Positions 5,493-35,634 of a DNA stretch of 35,634 nt are shown here, piece by piece; the first letter of the stretch is position 1, and each line of letters begins with the position of its first letter. This stretch comes from Candidatus Tayloriibacteriota bacterium (GTDB lineage Bacteria; Patescibacteriota; Minisyncoccia; Phycocordibacterales; SIBU01). The translations under genes and the position numbers were made by a program. Location: positions 1-35,634 of the forward strand of contig SIBU01000008.1 in NCBI GenBank assembly GCA_009695005.1, in the 5' to 3' direction. The notes under the pieces were generated by a model. The model made no database searches and had not been told where the DNA came from. It worked only from the letters and a program-made list of their open reading frames with translations.

Positions 5493-7094
5493 TTAATAGA
5501 CATCGTCCTGCTTTTCTTTAAGGAACGAAACAAATGCATCGGAGAAGTTTAAAACAAATTTAAATGGTGTTTCTATGATGAAGTCTAAAATAAATACAAA
5601 TAGATTTATCGAAGAAAATTTCCTGGACAACCATTTTCCAGTTTTAATTATAGGTAGGGCAAAAAGATTGAACATAATACCAAAAATCTTGTCGTTTTCC
5701 TGCGTAACTTTCCATTTGTTTGCACTGTGTCTGATTCTTAAGGCGAAGTAACTGATAAGTGCCAAAAAACACAAGAACAGGAATATACTGACTATGCTGA
5801 AGTTAAACTTGAACAAAGAAACAATAATTACACCGAATACAATCATAAACAAAAATACGTATAAACAGTAGAAAAGCACAGTAAATATGCTAACTGTGAT
5901 AGGCGGAATTCTTATTAGTTTTCCACTCTCACTGGTGATAATTTTCTCAACTCCCTGTAGGATTTTCTTGGTATTTTCATCTCCAAGTTTTCCCACAGTT
6001 AATGTCATAAACATCAAGACTATCGGATGAACTAAAACATTTGTTGCAATCGGAATATACTCTATTTCTTTAATTACATATATTTGATATGGAACTTCCA
6101 TTGCAAGAGCGATGACAATTTTTGTACAAAAAATATACAACACAGCACGAACAGCACTACTTCTAGCCTTGGAAAATTGGTGCTTATAATTTTTCTCCAG
6201 ATAATCCTTGATAAATCTTTCACGCATCTCTGGATCAGAAATTACACGCTCTGATTCTGCGCCGTACGCATGCACAAGCTCCCTTATAATTGAAAAATAG
6301 ATTGCATGATTGTTAAGTTTGGGTATCAATTTTAAACTTAAAGGGTTTTCAAGAGAAGCTTGAATTGAGTCTAAAATATTTGGACAAGTTGGACCAATAT
6401 TTTGAATTTGGGCAATATCAGTTTGGCCAACCCATGTCGGATTATGCTTGTTCCAGAGTTTATAACGCAAAGCCTCATCATCACTGTTCAGTAAACTTCT
6501 GTAACACGCTATATTTACTTGAGTGGGCACTTCACTTTGAGAGAACTGCAAATCACTGACTCGAACGTCATCTGCAACTGTAGCGAAAAAAGCGTCAGCC
6601 ACAAAATCATCCTCGTTTCCTGAAAAAAAGAAAGACTCGATTTCGCTACTCATAATGCTCAATATGGCATTACGGTATTTAGGCATTTTGGGGAGTCCTT
6701 CAGGTAAAGATTGCACAAGGGTGATGTACTTAGAGACAATTGTATTCAATTCCTCGATTGCCTTTTCGGGTATTGAGTTGTTGGCTAGATATCGTCCTGC
6801 AATGAGCTCTTGCACCAAAGACATCCCGATCGCATCGTTTCCACCTTCAAATACAATTTTTCTCTTTGCAATTCGCTCAATCGCACTACGTCTTATGTGT
6901 CTTTCATCCTTATAGTCAACCAGGTATCTAACCTTTTCATAGAGAGCACCGGCCTTCTCTGTAATCCTGTTTACGTTAATGAGTGAATCACCATTTGTAG
7001 CTGTAATATGAGCCTTTTTTTGGCTTTTAAGCTTCTCAGTAAGGGCCACTATTGATGGTGATAACATGCCAAAATAATACCAGATTTCTGGCAA
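5493..7094 (-). CDS. Hypothetical protein with soluble N-terminal half and several C-terminal TM segments
   Basis: 533-aa ORF, 3 nt upstream of the HD gene (likely operon). Hydrophobic stretches e.g. ITVSIFTVLFYCLYVFLFMIVFGVIIVSLF. Start could be ATG at 7070. Confidence 0.75.
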   Translation of the reverse strand: MPEIWYYFGMLSPSIVALTEKLKSQKKAHITATNGDSLINVNRITEKAGALYEKVRYLVDYKDERHIRRSAIERIAKRKIVFEGGNDAIGMSLVQELIAGRYLANNSIPEKAIEELNTIVSKYITLVQSLPEGLPKMPKYRNAILSIMSSEIESFFFSGNEDDFVADAFFATVADDVRVSDLQFSQSEVPTQVNIACYRSLLNSDDEALRYKLWNKHNPTWVGQTDIAQIQNIGPTCPNILDSIQASLENPLSLKLIPKLNNHAIYFSIIRELVHAYGAESERVISDPEMRERFIKDYLEKNYKHQFSKARSSAVRAVLYIFCTKIVIALAMEVPYQIYVIKEIEYIPIATNVLVHPIVLMFMTLTVGKLGDENTKKILQGVEKIITSESGKLIRIPPITVSIFTVLFYCLYVFLFMIVFGVIIVSLFKFNFSIVSIFLFLCFLALISYFALRIRHSANKWKVTQENDKIFGIMFNLFALPIIKTGKWLSRKFSSINLFVFILDFIIETPFKFVLNFSDAFVSFLKEKQDDVY

Positions 7095-7236
7095 TTATCC
7101 AAATATTATTGTGGGTAACAAATTAGTTATATTTTGCCCTACAGCGCTTTGGAAAAACGTCATTCTAAGTTAAAATATATTTATATTTCCCGGTTTATTC
7201 TAATTATTTCGGCCTATTTTAAGTTTTATAGTTGAC

Positions 7237-8310
7237 ATGAATAAGTTTTTACAGAAAATAAAACGTCACGGCAGTTCCCTATCGTTCATAGCAGGTTTTG
7301 CCTGGGACAATATAATGTTGTCTAGAATAGATCACTTGCTAGCAAACGTACTGCTTGGTTTGTATCTTTTGCTGTCCGCCATGAGCATAATTGGTCTTAA
7401 CGCTCCAGTTGGCGAGAATTTTCGTGGACGCATAACTGAAAGGTACTCAAAATGGCTTCCATTTATTTTGCAATTTTGTTTCGGTAGTTTGTTCAGTGCA
7501 TATCTCGTGCTTTATACTAGAAGCGCCTCACTTTCATCAGACTGGCCATTTTTACTTTTTCTGGGATTTCTTGTGATCAGCAATGAGCTGTTTCGTAAAA
7601 GATATTTTTCAATTACTTTACCCTCAAGTATTTTTTTTGTTGTCTTATTTTCATATAGTATTTTCTCTATGCCAATTTTGTTCGGCAACATTAGCGACAA
7701 AATTTTTGTTTTTAGCGGTTTGTTAAGTTTCGGTGTTTTTGTGCTGTTTTCGTTTGTTTTGTTTAAAGTCGCTCCGGAAAAATTTAAAACATCTGGATTA
7801 AGATTATATGCTACTGTAACAGGACTTTTCATATTATTTAATCTGGCATATTTCAGTGGTTTTATTCCTCCGATTCCAATCTCGATCAAGGAAATAGGTG
7901 TTTTTCACCTTGTAGAACGCAATACTGATGGTAATTACACCCTAAGTTTCGAGCCATCAAAATGGCATTACATTTTTAGTGGAACCTCGAAAATTTATAA
8001 CAGATTACCTGATGAGCCCGTGTATTTGTGGAGTTCAATTTTTGCTCCAACAAAATTTAATTTACCGATTTTCCACCGCTGGCAGCATTTTGACGAGTCT
8101 TCTCTTAGTTGGAAAACTACGGACTTACTTCAATTTACTGTTGTCGGAGGCCGAGATGAAGGTTTTCGTGGTTACACAGTTAAAGCAAAAGTTTACCCGG
8201 CTAAGTGGCGTGTCGACGTTGAAACTTTGCGAGGCGATTTAGTGGGCCGTTTTGATTTTGAGATAATTGACAATCCCCTACGCAACCATCTTTTGGTGGA
8301 AAGAAGATAG
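7237..8310 (+). CDS. Membrane protein with C-terminal DUF2914-like domain
   Basis: Multiple TM segments, then FHRWQHFDESSLSWKTTDLLQFTVVGGRDEGFRGYTVKAKVYPAKWRVDVETLRGDLVGRFDFEII, matching my recollection of DUF2914. Confidence 0.75.
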   Translation: MNKFLQKIKRHGSSLSFIAGFAWDNIMLSRIDHLLANVLLGLYLLLSAMSIIGLNAPVGENFRGRITERYSKWLPFILQFCFGSLFSAYLVLYTRSASLSSDWPFLLFLGFLVISNELFRKRYFSITLPSSIFFVVLFSYSIFSMPILFGNISDKIFVFSGLLSFGVFVLFSFVLFKVAPEKFKTSGLRLYATVTGLFILFNLAYFSGFIPPIPISIKEIGVFHLVERNTDGNYTLSFEPSKWHYIFSGTSKIYNRLPDEPVYLWSSIFAPTKFNLPIFHRWQHFDESSLSWKTTDLLQFTVVGGRDEGFRGYTVKAKVYPAKWRVDVETLRGDLVGRFDFEIIDNPLRNHLLVERR

Positions 8311-8370
8311 TATTTACTTAGTTAATATATTTCAAATGAACTATCGCTACGTGTGATAATTGATTAAGGT

Positions 8371-8928
8371 TTATTTATTATAGTTTCTCAAGTGTAAAAG
8401 CATAAGCAAGACGAGGAAAAAAAACGCCGTAACAGACATCATAGGAATAGTCACAAAACCGAACTCAACAAAATATCTTACTGAACAGGAAGCTCCTCCA
8501 ACAACATCACAAGAAGGCAGTACACTGGAATCAATTGATTGCCCATAAAAGTGGTAACCGGCGATTACTGTCCCAATTATGGACAGTGCTAAGCAGTACA
8601 GATCGGCATCCCTTGTTTTTTTCCATAATGCAAGACCTAAAATCACAAATTGTGGATAGAGAAAAATTCTTTGTATCCAACAAAGTTCACAGGGTATATA
8701 TCCAATTACCTCGGAATATATAAGACTGATTAGTACTGATGCCGAAACTATCAGAAATCCGATAATTAAAGATTTCTCTTTAAAATAGTCGAGAATGAAA
8801 CTTTTCTCAGAACTTTTAGAGAAAAATCTATCCTTGATCATCATGCCAACTATACAAATAACGCTGATCAGTAACAAAATTGTTCCGAAAGACGTACTAA
8901 GATTTAAGTATTGTGTAAATTGCTCCAT
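8371..8928 (-). CDS. Disulfide bond formation protein B (DsbB/BdbC family)
   Basis: Multi-TM; YIPCELCWIQRIFLYPQ (CxxC in conserved context) and second Cys pair SSVLPSCDVVGGASCSV. Confidence 0.88.
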   Translation of the reverse strand: MEQFTQYLNLSTSFGTILLLISVICIVGMMIKDRFFSKSSEKSFILDYFKEKSLIIGFLIVSASVLISLIYSEVIGYIPCELCWIQRIFLYPQFVILGLALWKKTRDADLYCLALSIIGTVIAGYHFYGQSIDSSVLPSCDVVGGASCSVRYFVEFGFVTIPMMSVTAFFFLVLLMLLHLRNYNK

Positions 8929-8931
8929 AAA

Positions 8932-9330
8932 CTATTTTACCGTTTCAGTAGGAAGTACACAACCTGTTTTTTCAGCCAAAACAGAAAGAGAAATTTCACC
9001 TGTTGAACTGCTTGTGTCACCAAAGTACCAAGTAGGGTAAGTGGTGATTTTTCTTTCTATACAAATTGGGGTTTGTCCGCGACTGTCAGGAGTAGAACAC
9101 TCAACGTAAGGTAAATATTGCTTTGACTTACCAAATAAAGCCTTCTGCTTTTGACAATGAGGACACCAAAACGCGCCATAAAAAGTTGCTCCCTTTTGAC
9201 CTAAACACTGCGCGAAACCATCATACTTACTAGGTCCACCGGAAACTTTACTGGCATAGAAAAGTAAACCTATTGTAAGTATTAATAGAATTATTCCGCC
9301 AATAAAGGTTGTCTTGTTTAATTGTTCCAT
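8932..9330 (-). CDS. Membrane-anchored thioredoxin-like protein (CPHC)
   Basis: N-terminal TM; KGATFYGAFWCPHCQKQKALFGK; ITTYPTWYFG (cis-Pro loop). 3 nt upstream of dsbB. Confidence 0.85.
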   Translation of the reverse strand: MEQLNKTTFIGGIILLILTIGLLFYASKVSGGPSKYDGFAQCLGQKGATFYGAFWCPHCQKQKALFGKSKQYLPYVECSTPDSRGQTPICIERKITTYPTWYFGDTSSSTGEISLSVLAEKTGCVLPTETVK

Positions 9331-9438
9331 TTTTTATAATATATGATTTATATGTGCCATTATATCATCACTGTCACTGTTGTAAAATTTTTGAAACTAG
9401 AGGATAATATTAATATAGTAGCTAATTAAAATTGATTT

Positions 9439-9843
9439 ATGATAAAAAAGTGCTGTGCAGTTACAAACTCAGATTTAGGAATTTTAGTAATTCGTTTTTC
9501 TTTGGCTCTCGTTTTCATTATTCACGGTCTTGCTAAATTTCAAAACATGCAAGGTACACTTGCATTTTTCACAAGCCTAAGTATTTGGCCTGCGTTTGCA
9601 TATCTTGTTGCTGGAATTGAACTCTTTGGAGGAATTTTGCTTTTAGTTGGTTTTTTGACACCTTGGATGTCACTTGCCTTGGGATTAAACATGATGATGG
9701 CAATTCTTTTGGTTAAAATAAATAAGCCTTTCTTGGGTGGTTACGAATATGATTTAACATTAATGCTCGCTTCTCTTGGGCTGTCTCTACTTGGTACCGG
9801 TAAGTACACCATATGTCCTTGTGGAAAGGATTCTAAAAAGTAG
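9439..9843 (+). CDS. DoxX family protein
   Basis: ILVIRFSLALVFIIHGLAKFQ...GIELFGGILLLVGFLTPWMSLALGLNMMMAI. Confidence 0.85.
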   Translation: MIKKCCAVTNSDLGILVIRFSLALVFIIHGLAKFQNMQGTLAFFTSLSIWPAFAYLVAGIELFGGILLLVGFLTPWMSLALGLNMMMAILLVKINKPFLGGYEYDLTLMLASLGLSLLGTGKYTICPCGKDSKK

Positions 9844-9869
9844 TCAGGTCTCATTCAATTTAATTGTCT

Positions 9870-10289
9870 ATGGAAAAAAAGCCAAAAGTTGCAATGGTTT
9901 TCGGTGTTTTTGATATTCTTCACGCTGGTCACAAACATTTTATTGAAAGCGCTTCATTTTTGGCTGAAAAACTTGTGATTGTTTTAGCTTCAGACGAGAA
10001 TGTCTTAAATCTAAAGGGCGAATTTCCAATTAATATGTTTAATGATCGTTTACAATCACTAAGTAAGCTATTTCCTGATGTAAAAATTGTAAAAGGAGAC
10101 GATGAACTCGGTAAATGGAACATTGTTTCGGTGATAAAACCCGATTTGATTATTTTCGGCTACGATCAAGAAAAAATGAAAGAGGCACTGAGCTCGCGTG
10201 CTGGAATTTTTTCAGCTACCAACTTAGTTTCCATATCAAAGTACAAAGATGGATCACTTCACTCATCAACTCTTAGAAAAATGCTATAA
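9870..10289 (+). CDS. Cytidylyltransferase-family protein (TagD/RfaE C-domain-like)
   Basis: VAMVFGVFDILHAGHKHFIESA (GxFDxxHxGH) and HSSTLRKML (STxxR-like). Confidence 0.88.
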   Translation: MEKKPKVAMVFGVFDILHAGHKHFIESASFLAEKLVIVLASDENVLNLKGEFPINMFNDRLQSLSKLFPDVKIVKGDDELGKWNIVSVIKPDLIIFGYDQEKMKEALSSRAGIFSATNLVSISKYKDGSLHSSTLRKML

Positions 10290-10856: not shown

Positions 10857-12311
10857 ATGTTTTCTCTACTAAAAAAATTAATTTTTAGGAAACCCAAGAT
10901 ATTTATCGCTATCTTTCTATTTTTTTTCACATTTCAATTTATAGATACATCTGCCGATGCTCCCACAGTAGTTTCTTTTGTTTCTACCGAGTCAATTGAA
11001 TCGGCACAAGTGGCAAATTTGACCTGGTCAATTAACGGGGGTGGGCATACTTTGATGGTGCCTTGTATTCAAGGCGTTAAGTTGTTCTATGATTCAAACA
11101 AGACAGTTTTTCCATGTGGCACTCGAGTGTCAGTAAGCAAACAGGCCAGTGACGGAATATCGCTTGTGATTGTGAATGTAAGTGGAAGTATGAGAATTAT
11201 AACTGCTAGGATTATTCCAAAAGACGCATACGCAAAAGACTATGACCTAGGTGCGAGAGAAACCTCTGTGACAGTTTATCCAGTGAATCAGCCTATTACC
11301 GGTTTTTTTTCAAATGCTACAACCACTAAATCTGGAACAGCTACTATTTTTTACTGGACATCTAAACATCTAGATGGAGTCAATATAAAAATTTCGTGTA
11401 ACGAATCTGTCACAGCCACATTGCCAACACTTGGAGGGAAGTTTGTTCCATGCGACAAAATGATTTTCCCAACGGATTTACCCGGTACAGGATTAACCTC
11501 AATAATGTTCGCTAATCCCTCAAGTATCGATCAGCCTGTTGATATAACACTTTTCCCTGCAATGGCTGCGGGCTTTTATGATGGTTTACATCCAAACACT
11601 ATTAATCTTTCGATTGCAAGTGATGCACAAAAGCCAGTTTCGATTTTGTTTTACCCAAATAAGTCGAAAATATCATCTGGTGAGCTCATATATTTGAACT
11701 GGTCAATAACCAATGCGGTTGGTGCTAACATTAAATTTACCTGCTCAACCAACATAAAATTGCAAAGTTTTACTGCAACTGCCATAACTGATATCTTGTG
11801 TGGAGAATACGCCTGGGTTAACCCCTTAAGTGCTTCAAGTACCATCGCAATAAATGTCAGTGGGCAAAATCAAGAGTCGGAGATAGTTTCTGTCACTATA
11901 TTTCCATATTTAAAAGACAAAACTTACGATGCAAGACAGAGCCGTTCGTTTAACTTACAGGTAGACCCAGCGAAAACTCTAATTCTCCAAACTGAAATCC
12001 CCATTGTGCCAACTTTATCCACTTCTACAACTGTAGTATTACCTCCTGTGACTATTAACGCAAAGAAGGATGTTTTTGCTCGATGGCTAGGTCCTGGCTC
12101 TAAAGGAGAGGATGTAAAACTTCTTCAAATATTTTTAGCTAAAGATAAGAAAATCTATCCTGAAGGTTACAAGACTGGATATTATGGAAAAACAACAAAG
12201 TCTGCTGTTGGACGATATCAACTGAAGTACAAGATTATTCTCACAGCTAAGGATTCTATTTACGGCACCTTGGATCCAATAACAAGATATCTTCTCAATT
12301 CACAACAGTAA
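10857..12311 (+). CDS. Secreted surface protein with three Cys-containing Ig-like repeats and a C-terminal peptidoglycan-binding domain
   Basis: Signal-like N-terminus (FRKPKIFIAIFLFFFTFQFIDTSADA). Three repeats of the type '.W..........C...(C)......V...IFP'. C-terminus GPGSKGEDVKLLQIFLAKDKKIYPEGYKTGYYGKTTKSAVGRYQLKY is PG_binding_1-like. Confidence 0.8.
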   Translation: MFSLLKKLIFRKPKIFIAIFLFFFTFQFIDTSADAPTVVSFVSTESIESAQVANLTWSINGGGHTLMVPCIQGVKLFYDSNKTVFPCGTRVSVSKQASDGISLVIVNVSGSMRIITARIIPKDAYAKDYDLGARETSVTVYPVNQPITGFFSNATTTKSGTATIFYWTSKHLDGVNIKISCNESVTATLPTLGGKFVPCDKMIFPTDLPGTGLTSIMFANPSSIDQPVDITLFPAMAAGFYDGLHPNTINLSIASDAQKPVSILFYPNKSKISSGELIYLNWSITNAVGANIKFTCSTNIKLQSFTATAITDILCGEYAWVNPLSASSTIAINVSGQNQESEIVSVTIFPYLKDKTYDARQSRSFNLQVDPAKTLILQTEIPIVPTLSTSTTVVLPPVTINAKKDVFARWLGPGSKGEDVKLLQIFLAKDKKIYPEGYKTGYYGKTTKSAVGRYQLKYKIILTAKDSIYGTLDPITRYLLNSQQ

Positions 12312-30633: not shown

Positions 30634-33600
30634 TTACAACACAATGTTTACGATTCTTCCTTTGACATAAATAATTTTTTTAATCTCTTTTCCATCCAAC
30701 CATTTTGTAATTTCGGGCAACATAAGAATTTTAGCTTTTGCCTCTTCCTCTGAAATATCTGCTTCAACTGATAACCTTCCACGAACTTTACCATTAATTT
30801 GAATAATCAAATTTTCAAACGCTGATGTCATGATCAATAAATCAAATGACGGCCAAGATTCAAGGTGAATTGATTTTTTATGAGACAACATATGCCACAA
30901 CTCATCTGTAATATGGGGAGTAAAAGGGGCCAACAAGCGAAGGAAAATTTCATAATTTTTTATTGAAACTTCCTCTTCCTTATCCATCTCATTAGCAAGA
31001 ATCATCATTGAGCTTACTGCGGTATTAAATCTCGTAGCTTCTATGTCATCTCCCACTTTCTTAATAGTTTTATGTAAAAGTGTTTCTAATTTTGAATTAG
31101 TAATTTTTGACCTTTTTCTCTTTTGTGATTTGGAATTTACGTTTTGAGTTTTCTCAAAAAGTCTCCAAACCTTTTCGAGAAATCTTCTTGGGCCAATCAT
31201 TGATTCAGTAGACCACGCAATGTGTTGATCAAAAGGTCCCATAAACATTTCGTACAAACGCAAAGTATCTGCTCCAAATTGCTCGATTAGAGTATCAGGA
31301 TTTACTACATTACCCACAGACTTGGACATCTTTGCTCCACCCTCACCAAGAATAAGCCCATGCGAGGTACGCTTGAGATATGGCTCACTTGTTGGAACAA
31401 GTTTTAGATCAAATAGAAATTTATGCCAAAATCTCGAATATAGAAGATGCAGTGTTGTGTGTTCCATTCCGCCGTTGTACCAATCCACCGGAGTCCAATA
31501 CTTCAACGCTTTAGCCGAAGCAAACTCACGTTTATTTTTAGAATCGGCATAACGAAGATAATACCAAGAGGAACCTGCCCAATTTGGCATTGTATCGGTT
31601 TCTCTTTTTGCAGGACCCTTACATTTTGGACATTTTACATTTACCCAATTTTCAATGACTGCCAGTGGAGACTCTCCGGTATCAGTTGGCAGATAATTTT
31701 TAACATTTGGTAATTTTACAGGCAAATCCTTTTCAGGAACTGCTACTGCTCCACACTTTTGACAGTGAATCACAGGTATCGGTTCCCCCCAATAACGCTG
31801 ACGGGAGAAAATCCAGTCACGAAGTTTGAAAGTTGTGATTTTTTTTCCATAACCTTTTTCTTCCATGTATTCCATTATTTTTTTAGTAGCCTCATGAATA
31901 TCTGTCCCATTTAAAAATTCACTGTTTATCATCGTTCCTGTATCTTCCTGAACTTGCTCTTTTTTGGTAATTGGTGATACATCTCCATCTGGACCGACAA
32001 CGACACGAACAATTTCCAACTTCATTTCTTGAGCAAATTCAAAATCGCGCATATCATGTCCCGGCACACCGACTAAGGCTCCAGTACCTACGCCACCCAA
32101 TACAAAATCCGCGACATACATCGGCATCTTTCTATTGTTCAAACTATTCACTGCATACAAACCAGTAAACACTCCTGTTTTCTTCCTCCCTTCCGCTAAT
32201 CGCTCAATATCAGTTCTTTTGTTGACCTGCTCAATATAAACCGAAACTTCCTTTTTGTTCGGAAAATGTTCCAAATTTTCTTTGACAAATGCCCCGTCGG
32301 GAGCCAAAGCAATAAAGGTGGCGCCGAAATTTGTATCTGGTCTTGTTGTAAAAATTGTTACAGTTTTTTTAAAACCATCAATTGGATAAGTAATGTTAAT
32401 TCCGTGAGATTTACCTATCCAATTCTTCTGCTGTATTCTTATTTTTTCTAAATAATCAATTGCGGTCTTATCACCAAGCATTCTCGGTACAAAATGTTTT
32501 TTAAACATCATTGCGATGCGAACATATCGAACATCATCACTTTGATCAGCTTTAAACACACCGGTCTTTGAATCCTTTAGAAGAGCCTCAGTCGGATAAC
32601 CAGGCCAATAACTTTTCGCTTGCACCTTGTCCTGCAAGATATAATTAGCGGGAACTTCTTCTCTAACAAATGTTCCATTCTCGTCTGTATAAGCTATGCC
32701 ATAATGAAAATTAGCCTTAGACTCGCCTCCAACTCCCTTTAGAAAGTTTTTCAAAAAAACTACAACCTCCTCATCTGTGGCTCTTTCACTAGAAGGATTG
32801 GCATGTTTACGAAGATGCACCATAAAGCCTTTATTTTCCGGCCACTTGTCAATCCACAAAATATGGTCAGTGGAAATAGTTGGTATACCTGTTGCTTTGA
32901 AATAGAATTCGGATTTCTTTTTTGCATTCTCAAGAAAATCATCCCCTTCTACAAGCTTACTGTCGTCAACAGGGGGAATATCATCAAAAGTAATAAGGCT
33001 TATACCGACTACACCGGCAAAACAGGCCTTTATCATTTTCACCTTTGCAGAATTACGAGTACCGATAAGTACTCTCTTTGGATCCAAATCCCTATCTAAA
33101 CGATCTGCGTATTTCGTAATCGCAAGCATCCATTGCTCTTTCTCTCTTTTCTCAACGGGAGTTCCACAACGCTCGCAACAACCATCCACTACTTCCTCAT
33201 TAGCCAGACCGGTTTTATCCTTTGGACACCAATTGATAGCCATTTTCTTTTTGTAGGCTAAACCTTTCTCTAAAAATTTAAGAAAAATCCACTGAGTCCA
33301 TTTGTAGTATTCTGGATCAGTTGTATTTATTTCTCTTGACCAATCAAATGAAAAGCCAAGCGCCTTAAGTTGTCGCCTAAAGGTATCAGTATTTTTTTTA
33401 GTCACAATCGCCGGCTGTATACCCGTTTTAATGGCGTAATTCTCTGTAGGAAGCCCGAAAGCATCCCAACCTATAGGATATAGCACTTCGTTGCCTTCCG
33501 CGCGACGCTTACGCGCAATAATGTCCATCGCAGTATTACTTCTTATGTGTCCAACATGCAAACCATCTCCTGATGGGTAAGGAAATTCGATGAGTCCGTA

Positions 33601-33702
33601 AAACTTCTTTTTTTTCGAATTCACCTTGGCTACATTTAGTTTCTTCTTCTCCCAATATGATTGCCACTTTTTTTCAATCCTTTTATGGTCGTAAGATTTC
33701 AT
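30634..33702 (-). CDS. leuS: Leucyl-tRNA synthetase with large insertion
   Basis: FPYPSGDGLHVGHIRSNTAMDIIAR (HIGH), IGWDAFGLPTENYAIKTG, NWIGKSHGINI, TIFTTRPDTNFGATFI, MSKSVGNVVNPD (KMSKS-like), IQINGKVRGRL. Start refined to internal Met at 33702. Confidence 0.97.
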   Translation of the reverse strand: MKSYDHKRIEKKWQSYWEKKKLNVAKVNSKKKKFYGLIEFPYPSGDGLHVGHIRSNTAMDIIARKRRAEGNEVLYPIGWDAFGLPTENYAIKTGIQPAIVTKKNTDTFRRQLKALGFSFDWSREINTTDPEYYKWTQWIFLKFLEKGLAYKKKMAINWCPKDKTGLANEEVVDGCCERCGTPVEKREKEQWMLAITKYADRLDRDLDPKRVLIGTRNSAKVKMIKACFAGVVGISLITFDDIPPVDDSKLVEGDDFLENAKKKSEFYFKATGIPTISTDHILWIDKWPENKGFMVHLRKHANPSSERATDEEVVVFLKNFLKGVGGESKANFHYGIAYTDENGTFVREEVPANYILQDKVQAKSYWPGYPTEALLKDSKTGVFKADQSDDVRYVRIAMMFKKHFVPRMLGDKTAIDYLEKIRIQQKNWIGKSHGINITYPIDGFKKTVTIFTTRPDTNFGATFIALAPDGAFVKENLEHFPNKKEVSVYIEQVNKRTDIERLAEGRKKTGVFTGLYAVNSLNNRKMPMYVADFVLGGVGTGALVGVPGHDMRDFEFAQEMKLEIVRVVVGPDGDVSPITKKEQVQEDTGTMINSEFLNGTDIHEATKKIMEYMEEKGYGKKITTFKLRDWIFSRQRYWGEPIPVIHCQKCGAVAVPEKDLPVKLPNVKNYLPTDTGESPLAVIENWVNVKCPKCKGPAKRETDTMPNWAGSSWYYLRYADSKNKREFASAKALKYWTPVDWYNGGMEHTTLHLLYSRFWHKFLFDLKLVPTSEPYLKRTSHGLILGEGGAKMSKSVGNVVNPDTLIEQFGADTLRLYEMFMGPFDQHIAWSTESMIGPRRFLEKVWRLFEKTQNVNSKSQKRKRSKITNSKLETLLHKTIKKVGDDIEATRFNTAVSSMMILANEMDKEEEVSIKNYEIFLRLLAPFTPHITDELWHMLSHKKSIHLESWPSFDLLIMTSAFENLIIQINGKVRGRLSVEADISEEEAKAKILMLPEITKWLDGKEIKKIIYVKGRIVNIVL
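32455..33082 (-). other. In-frame insertion in LeuRS with Ham1/RdgB-like (ITPase) domain similarity
   Basis: KRVLIGTRNSAKVKMIKACF...KLVEGDDFLENAKKKSEFYFKATGIPTISTDHILWID...FHYGIAYTDENG matches the Ham1 pattern (xVxxATxNxxKVxEl...EeGxTFxENAxxKA......TGxPxxADDSGLxVD...Fxcxla..). Confidence 0.75.
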
Positions 33703-33761
33703 AGAAAGATAATATAACAAACCAGGGATTTATCAAATTTATTGTTTGAACTTACTCAAAT

Positions 33762-33789
33762 AAAAAACACACCTCTCTATTTAGGTGTG
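33762..33789 (-). terminator. Rho-independent terminator (minus)
   Basis: CACACCT(33768-33774)/AGGTGTG(33783-33789) with minus-strand T6. Confidence 0.7.
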
Positions 33790-33995
33790 GTAACGGATGC
33801 ATATGCTATAAACGAGATTGGGTGTGGTACTTTATGATATACCCTCCAAGCTGCGTAAAAGAGAAATATACTGATTATGAAGACTAAGAGTGCAACGAAA
33901 TATCCAACAAAACAGCTCTCGTCAGTACTCGCAAGCACCCTCCATGCGAAAATCAGAGCTGCTATGGCAGCTACCAATAAAATCCAAAATAGCAT
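33777..33995 (-). CDS. Small two-TM membrane protein
   Basis: MLFWILLVAAIAALIFAWRVLAS...CFVGYFVALLVFIISIFLFYAAWRVY. Confidence 0.65.
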   Translation of the reverse strand: MLFWILLVAAIAALIFAWRVLASTDESCFVGYFVALLVFIISIFLFYAAWRVYHKVPHPISFIAYASVTTPK

Positions 33996-34088
33996 TTTCT
34001 CCTTTATGGGTTAAACGAAGAACTAATGTGATTGCGAGAATAATAGGACAAATTTTTCCCAACGTCAAGATAATCAAATTCAAGCTTA

Positions 34089-34168
34089 ATGTCGAGGAAT
34101 TGCCTTGACGGAGAGGTCGTGTGTTGTAATGTTGCATTATGTCGAGGAATTGCCTTAATGAAGAGGCC
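34089..34168. repeat. Repeat cluster A: two hairpin repeats at 50-bp spacing
   Basis: ATGTCGAGGAATTGCCTTGACGGAGAGGTCG...(50 bp)...ATGTCGAGGAATTGCCTTAATGAAGAGGCC. Confidence 0.9.
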
Positions 34169-34233
34169 ATCTCCTGATAGGAAAGGCAACATGATTGTCA
34201 TTTCTTCTCTATTTTCGTGTGATCGAAGGGTTT

Positions 34234-34257
34234 AAAGATTGAAATAATTCAATCTTT
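34234..34257. repeat. 10-bp inverted repeat (operator-like)
   Basis: AAAGATTGAA ataa TTCAATCTTT, overlapping a TTGACA -35-like hexamer at its right end. Confidence 0.7.
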
Positions 34258-34284
34258 GACAATGGAGTGCAATTTATGCAATAT
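34256..34284 (+). promoter_or_regulatory. Candidate sigma70-type promoter
   Basis: TTGACA - 17 nt - CAATAT upstream of the ORF at 34321. Confidence 0.4.
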
Positions 34285-34320
34285 GTATTCGGATAAAAAC
34301 GTCTGCGACCCAAAAAACAT

Positions 34321-34731
34321 ATGGAAGATCATTGTCACCCAAAAAACCCATGCGGATACAAATACCCGCTTCTCGTCCTTCACCTTGATGGAGTACCAGC
34401 TTGGCATGTTGAGATTGACGGACAAATTGGACAGTACCTCAATCTGGAAGACCGGGCTGTAAAAAATCTCAGTGCCGCCTGCTCGGAAAGTGGCCTTTCA
34501 GGTGATGCACTTCAAACGGCTGCAACTCCTCTCTTAAAAAAGATTGCCAGGAAATTACGTGTCCACGAGTTAATCATAAATCGTGTAGGCTGGTACACCG
34601 GAGCGGGTCCAAGTCACATCCTGAGGGATGGAACATTCTTCGCTCGGATGATTGATATTGAAGCGGATACCAAAAAAACAGGGGTACCTTCGTGGATGGA
34701 TGCAGGTCAACCCGTCCACGACGCTGACTAA
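34321..34731 (+). CDS. Hypothetical protein (136 aa)
   Basis: MEDHCHPKNPCGYKYPLLVLHLDGVPAWHVEIDGQIGQYLNLEDRAVKNLSAAC...; promoter-like element upstream, terminator downstream. Confidence 0.6.
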   Translation: MEDHCHPKNPCGYKYPLLVLHLDGVPAWHVEIDGQIGQYLNLEDRAVKNLSAACSESGLSGDALQTAATPLLKKIARKLRVHELIINRVGWYTGAGPSHILRDGTFFARMIDIEADTKKTGVPSWMDAGQPVHDAD

Positions 34732-34758
34732 TCTAACTGAAATACCTCTAAATGTACA

Positions 34759-34788
34759 AACGGCAACCTTTCGGACGCCGTTTTTTCT
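34759..34788 (+). terminator. Rho-independent terminator
   Basis: AACGGC(34759-34764)...GCCGTT(34777-34782) TTTT. Confidence 0.7.
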
Positions 34789-34822
34789 ATACTAAATACT
34801 TTTATTTACAATTAACAGAGTT

Positions 34823-34902
34823 ATGTCGAGGAATTGCCTTGACGAAGAAGCCATGTGTTCTAATGTTGCTTCATGTCAAGGAATTGCCTTGACGGAGACT
34901 AG
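34823..34902. repeat. Repeat cluster B: two hairpin repeats at 50-bp spacing
   Basis: ATGTCGAGGAATTGCCTTGACGAAGAAGCCATGTGTTCTAATGTTGCTTC ATGTCAAGGAATTGCCTTGACGGAGA, similar to cluster A at offset 734. Confidence 0.9.
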
Positions 34903-35088
34903 TAGTCTCTTACTATATGAAAAAGTTGATGCTTGAGTTAATAGCTTTAGGATATATGTTGGAAATCCAGGGGCGGGCATAACCCAACAGTCTGATCAGT
35001 GATTGATTTTCATAATATGACTTAATTGAACCGGGTAAAACAATACTACAAGTAATATAATTCAAATATGAGATAAGGGGTGAATAAC

Positions 35089-35117
35089 TTGACAAGTAAG
35101 GCAATTTTTGTTACTTT
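35089..35117 (+). promoter_or_regulatory. Candidate promoter
   Basis: TTGACA - 17 nt - TACTTT upstream of the ORF at 35154. Confidence 0.35.
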
Positions 35118-35153
35118 AGTTGTGGAAACACAAGGCCTCCAAATTAATTATAT

Positions 35154-35495
35154 ATGAATGGACAAGTAACAGCCGGTCAAGTGACGATTGTCGGTCAACC
35201 TGTGGATTACAGAATATATCCGAAAAGCCCTAGGGCACTTCCGGTCCAGATAATGCGAATGTGTAGAAATGAAGAGAGGCACGGCTTCTCTCCAAAAGAT
35301 GTTCGCATGGTTTGGGCTGAGGACCTAAGGTCTCTCACACTAGAAAACAGGGAAGTTTGCATCTCCGGAGGGTGTACAACTAAACTTCCGTCGATTTCAT
35401 TCTCGATTGCCGATGTAGAGCGGATTTCTTTTTCGCTAGGCGAATTTGTCGAAAGGGAGGGTTTTAAGCCTCCCAAATCAATCGCTTTTCGATAG
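35154..35495 (+). CDS. Hypothetical protein (113 aa)
   Basis: MNGQVTAGQVTIVGQPVDYRIYPKSPRALPVQIMRMCRNEERHGF...; terminator downstream. Confidence 0.6.
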   Translation: MNGQVTAGQVTIVGQPVDYRIYPKSPRALPVQIMRMCRNEERHGFSPKDVRMVWAEDLRSLTLENREVCISGGCTTKLPSISFSIADVERISFSLGEFVEREGFKPPKSIAFR

Positions 35496-35508
35496 ATTAC
35501 CTCTTACT

Positions 35509-35545
35509 ACCATTTTCCACTTTGCCGTGGAGAATGGTTTTTTTA
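35509..35545 (+). terminator. Rho-independent terminator
   Basis: ACCATTTTCCAC tttgcc GTGGAGAATGGT TTTTTT. Confidence 0.8.
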
Positions 35546-35564
35546 TGTCAGATCTTGGTTCCGT

Positions 35565-35634
35565 CTAGATTTTGAATTCAATTACTTCGCCATCCTTGAC
35601 GACATATTCCTTACCTTCGGTGCGAATTAAACCT
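35565..35634 (-). CDS. ychF: C-terminus of YchF/OLA1-type GTPase (TGS domain), truncated by window
   Basis: Minus-strand ...GLIRTEGKEYVVKDGEVIEFKI* resembles the YchF C-terminus (G..R.EGK.YVV.DGDVi.F.F). Confidence 0.65.
   Translation of the reverse strand, partial: GLIRTEGKEYVVKDGEVIEFKI

Follow-up and report, generated by a model that had tools for sequence, protein, structure and literature searches.

Paired hairpin repeats in a small Patescibacteria genome are very probably dispersed terminal sequences of a RAYT-type element

Short palindromes standing in pairs on both sides of a single orphan gene raise the question of whether they belong to that gene, as boundaries of a cassette or sites of its regulation, or whether they form a family of their own. 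The window, namely the whole stretch of 35,634 nucleotides analysed here, is contig C18 of genome G000 (793,660 bp in 24 contigs, 89% complete). The four hairpin copies reported by the initial annotation are indeed found in it, with spacings of exactly 50 bp inside each pair and 734 bp from pair to pair, and the pairing in copy 2 is weakened as described, the lower stem having one C-A mismatch. The features are as follows.

34089..34164, + strand: upstream doublet, REP/TIR-like, made of a hairpin, a conserved tail/linker and a second hairpin
34091..34109, + strand: hairpin 1, GTCGAGG-AATTG-CCTTGAC, 7 pairs with one G-T
34110..34136, + strand: variable part of about 8-9 nt, then the conserved tail GTGTGTTGTAAT and a spacer
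34141..34159, + strand: hairpin 2, GTCGAGG-AATTG-CCTTAAT, lower stem decayed
34321..34731, + strand: bracketed ORF of 136 aa, not a transposase
34760..34787, + strand: terminator-like hairpin ACGGC...GCCGT with a T-run, between the ORF and the second doublet, read from the sequence
34823..34898, + strand: downstream doublet
34825..34843, + strand: hairpin 3, GTCGAGG-AATTG-CCTTGAC
34875..34893, + strand: hairpin 4, GTCAAGG-AATTG-CCTTGAC, perfect stem

The two doublets, each 76 bp of hairpin, linker and hairpin, are 86% identical and ungapped, and they lie in direct orientation relative to each other. As single-stranded DNA the downstream one folds into one long REPIN-like hairpin (-16.2 kcal/mol, z -5.4). 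Allowing up to 3 mismatches, the pattern has 6 matches in the window versus 0.7 expected, and none of 100 shuffles reached 6, thus chance is excluded within the window. That the repeat is non-coding, as first proposed, is borne out by a single-base difference near the copy start (GTCGAGG versus GTACGAGG) which shifts the frame, and a coding reading is ruled out by such one-base length differences among the copies.

Searching the whole genome for the repeat, as the initial annotation had suggested, gave four more loci, on C22 and C23, which shows that the repeat also occurs beyond the window.

C22:584-627, - strand: repeat copy, singlet
C22:3407-3454, - strand: repeat copy, singlet
C22:25465-25509, - strand: repeat copy, doublet
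C23:62942-62986, + strand: repeat copy, singlet

In total the genome holds 6 loci with 9 hairpins, all intergenic, and a covariance model found the six loci with E values of 1e-12 to 1e-15, the second hairpins scoring weakly. The repeat unit, about 48 bp long, consists of an imperfect palindrome (stem of 7 bp, loop of 5 nt), then about 8 variable bases and the conserved tail GTGTGKTGTAATTT; the tail GTGTGTTGTAAT is common to all single copies and to the copies of another genome, G358, described below. In the copy alignment GTGTG-TAAT of the tail is nearly invariant, and doublets are two hairpins which share a tail. The lower stem tolerates mismatches, and in one copy (C22:25465b) it is altered on both sides with the pairing kept. 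We also observed that the doublet at C22:25462-25508 (L022 5462-5508) has its loop reverse-complemented, CAATT for AATTG, with the tail in the normal direction, which looks as though the stem-loop had been flipped in place.

What these four loci flank are ordinary genes: one copy follows a prephenate dehydrogenase-like gene, one separates FKBP from tgt, one lies between clpC and a tRNA gene, and one precedes murB (clpC, murB and the tRNA gene were identified by reading the sequence). The pairs do bracket the 34321-34731 gene, as had been noted, while the tie to this gene falls away, since a repeat which elsewhere lies between ordinary genes is not an attribute of it. The 136-aa product has no family match over any cut-off and no homologue in 6 other genomes (3 congeners and 3 of the order) or in phage records, and the gene is probably a bystander or neighbour of the repeats.

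Regarding the distribution among relatives, the repeat family is absent from three congeners, G001 and G003 among them. Genomes of the order are mostly 0.4-1.1 Mb at high completeness, which together with their bacterial genes suggests Patescibacteria/CPR. Among 397 of these genomes the single other carrier is G358, belonging to a different family, and a refined model applied to 384 genomes of the class found no carrier beyond it. Mobile DNA typically shows such a scattered distribution over families. At the clpC-tRNA site the repeat is missing from the congener G001, whose DNA is about 90 bp shorter there; with congeners of only about 70% DNA identity, a clean empty site including target sequence could not be shown. 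There was no match to the repeat in Rfam at gathering or permissive thresholds, in viral contigs by exact-pattern scans, or in phage and plasmid records by blastn. The 19-mer occurs in 3 unrelated contigs of a wider genome set, none of which matched the combined hairpin and tail pattern.

The copies in G358 give the clearest view of what the repeat is. On its contig C5, two copies at 11232-11279(+) and 12007-12054(-) lie inverted directly around one gene, 11281-11949(-), with 44 identical positions over 48 bp; the hairpins face outwards and the tails inwards, and the inner end of one copy abuts the stop codon. The encoded protein of 222 aa matches Pfam Y1_Tnp above the curated cut-off, matches NCBIfam REP_Tyr_transpos with an E value of 1.2e-7 that is well below that model's cut-off, and carries the motifs NHFH and YIHLNP. 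Y---NP is the signature of class-2 TnpA-REP, and NHFH/YIHLNP belong to such proteins (PMC6006769). No Y1 match came from PDB when the transposase alignment was used as query. The third G358 copy, at 7184, lies within a head-to-head inverted doublet. Hence the early suggestion of a MITE or mobile boundary pointed in the right direction, since a Y1-transposase element of G358 has terminal inverted repeats that match the window family. The window genome is different in this respect: the arrangement of a Y1/HUH gene bracketed by terminal inverted repeats (TIRs) of the repeat sequence was found in G358 only. No Y1 transposase was found in the G000 assembly by a search which matched the family in three other genomes; an alignment-based transposase search of G000 was also blank, which is weak since no known-positive genome was included.

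Related Y1 genes were gathered from G002, G003 and G358, and they reveal a common stem code. Each of the seven genes of the clade that were examined (L064-L070) is accompanied, at no more than 100 bp, by a CRAGG-N5-CCTYG hairpin with a loop of its own (TCGAA, TTAAA, TTCAA, CAATG/CAAGG, AGTCT and AATTG), and the stem-loop of the window family, CGAGG-AATTG-CCTTG, fits this code. About 255 kb contain the code 3 times outside the copies of the window family, a doublet in G003 accounting for two of them, and hairpins stand upstream of 5 of 9 transposase genes versus 8% of 138 other ORFs (Fisher p 0.0008). The divergent proteins L071 and L072 have other palindromes. In the transposase alignment NHFH is invariant, with YIHLNP or YVHLNP in the five closest members. 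The inverted doublet of G003 (AGACT/AGTCT) has the loop of L069, whose gene is on another contig; being distant from that gene, the doublet is an independent case of dispersal. As a further observation, four of the transposase ORFs (L064, L066, L068 and L069) contain the cognate hairpin near +160 nt and sometimes also near the 3' end, and in L066, L068 and L069 the embedded hairpin encodes QGxxL within SNYQGxxL.

We consider it very probable that the window repeats are dispersed, non-autonomous terminal sequences (REP-like or TIR) of a RAYT-type element, where 'REP' is applied loosely, GTAG being absent from the window family. The enzymes of IS608 and TnpA-REP bind single-stranded hairpins, cleave alongside them via a tyrosine and re-ligate (PMC8266576). 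By analogy, when a strand becomes single, e.g. as the lagging-strand template, the hairpin would fold, a Y1/HUH tyrosine transposase would bind its stem and loop, cleave beside it and join it elsewhere, and solo ends and doublets might thereby spread through intergenic DNA. The window repeats would have been cleaved and moved in this way, and the enzyme, presumably once present in the window species, may have been lost or may lie in the unassembled part of about 11%. As no Y1 gene was found in the assembly, the copies are relics, or else the missing part contains a gene that serves them.

Several other explanations can be weighed against this one. A gene cassette or composite mobile unit of 734 bp, whose paired repeats would act as recombination sites moving the 136-aa gene, is improbable. 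The gene and its terminator do sit between direct 76-bp repeats, no homologue exists in the three congeners, and the interval between leuS and ychF varies among them; however, the cassette boundary proposed at first is not supported, because the pairs are direct while the known mobile arrangement in G358 is inverted, the remaining copies flank ordinary genes with single hairpins at 3 of 4 loci, and a second gene of the interval (35154-35495), also without a family match, is unbracketed. Still less likely is a regulatory RNA or a pair of protein-binding sites, where the hairpin would act on the gene downstream from within its 5' UTR or promoter. Every G000 copy with a known downstream gene points toward that gene, and the near-invariant tail and the two-sided stem change that retains pairing would suit such a role, but the copies precede unrelated genes, one locus has a flipped loop, the orthologous tRNA site of G001 is without the repeat, Rfam gives nothing, and the G358 copy at 7184 is directed against its neighbour genes. 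As a promoter the repeat is rejected, the gap of 14 bp from TTGAC to TGTAAT being too short for sigma-70, and the paired regulator-binding sites once envisaged found no support.

The equal 50-bp periods, with a hairpin of 19-22 bp and a 28-bp spacer, recall a degenerate tandem repeat or a CRISPR remnant, a reading to which we give almost no credence. Homology links the 'spacers' with one another and with single copies elsewhere, the copies are dispersed, and in G358 the same repeat unit brackets a transposase gene. The linkers between the paired hairpins are related in both window doublets, and a CRISPR remnant, for which unique spacers would be expected, is refuted by this conservation.

The leuS-ychF interval itself (window 33720-35566, compared with G001 and G003) is variable, with two orphan ORFs in the window and, in the congeners, different small ORFs together with a membrane-protein-like ORF of 312-315 aa. 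The adjoining LeuRS, at window 30634-33720 (-) and 1028 aa long, has an inserted Ham1/ITPase-like domain, for which the excised piece matches Pfam Ham1p_like with E 1.1e-6, above the cut-off; by eye the same insertion is in LeuRS of G001. The G003 ortholog, L056 (G003:C27) 7092-10112 (-), is without the Ham1 insertion by eye and has a NUDIX domain at residues about 393-513, thus two different nucleotide-cleaning domains are inserted in the same enzyme within one genus.

Returning to the proposed terminal sequences of a RAYT-type element, the window family most resembles the TIR families of TIRYTs. In TIRtrons a Y1/HUH gene lies within long terminal inverted repeats which are unrelated to GTAG REPs and some of which are self-complementary, and further TIRs, solo or dimeric, form moderately abundant families elsewhere in the genome (Di Nocera et al. 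2013, PMC3733652). The likeness lies in the gene-bracketing TIRs of G358 and in the dispersed solo and dimeric copies (6 loci in G000 and a further copy in G358), whereas the shared CRAGG-N5-CCTYG code of the hairpins, the presence of TIRs without a transposase in the G000 assembly, and the absence of GGGGWSAS from the copy alignment set our case apart; this motif was reported for part of the TIRs and hence does not define the group (PMC3733652).

With REP/REPtron and RAYT systems (TnpA-REP class 2; PMC2817692, PMC6006769, PMC8266576) the family shares short extragenic palindromes, as singlets and doublets, beside a class-2 Y1 protein, and like classical REPs its palindromes are imperfect and dispersed. 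Against the RAYT reading count the low copy number, the direct orientation of the window doublets and the lack of a conserved GTAG/GTGG tag, GTAG standing directly before one listed hairpin (L068) and before none of the window family; with GTAG unconserved and so few copies, the family is not a classical REP. The fold of the downstream doublet and the inverted doublet of G003 recall REPINs (Bertels and Rainey 2011, PMC3116915), although in the window doublets the halves are palindromic and repeated directly, while REPINs and most REP dimers are inverted. On the opposite strand several copies start with CGTC or TGTC, as in the CGTC-tagged REPs, but here GTC lies within the stem, the first stem positions have no AT, there is no CCA tail, and the G358 copies flank a transposase, which was found for none of the CGTC REPs (PMC3733652).

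Subterminal single-stranded hairpins recognised by a Y1 transposase are also known from IS200/IS605 elements such as IS608. The ends of IS608 are not known to be inverted repeats, and unlike these elements the G358 protein lacks the class-1 motif Y---Q; no tnpB gene adjoins it by eye. As to the clade, its protein motifs NH[YF]H, F-Q and Y[IV]HLNP resemble TnpA-REP subclass 2.1, for which a survey found no REPs (PMC6006769), and this resemblance of motifs may serve as a lead.

The window repeats are a known kind of selfish DNA, of which the variant and the setting are new. We found no literature linking RAYTs with Patescibacteria/CPR in substance, as far as our incomplete coverage goes. The catalogued REP/RAYT systems come from other phyla and mostly from larger genomes, and the large branch 2.1 was linked to no REPs by motif survey (PMC6006769). 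We lean somewhat toward the view that Patescibacteria-type small genomes hold a GTAG-less RAYT clade of their own, subclass-2.1-like by motif, with private hairpins of the CRAGG-N5-CCTYG stem code and varying 5-nt loops, whose in-frame copies inside several transposase genes at about +160 nt suggest self-targeting or autoregulation. Members resembling 2.1 here come with hairpins of their own in genomes no larger than about 1 Mb, a size at which selfish repeats would be less expected, and a constant stem with an enzyme-dependent loop makes the pairing of hairpin and transposase directly testable.
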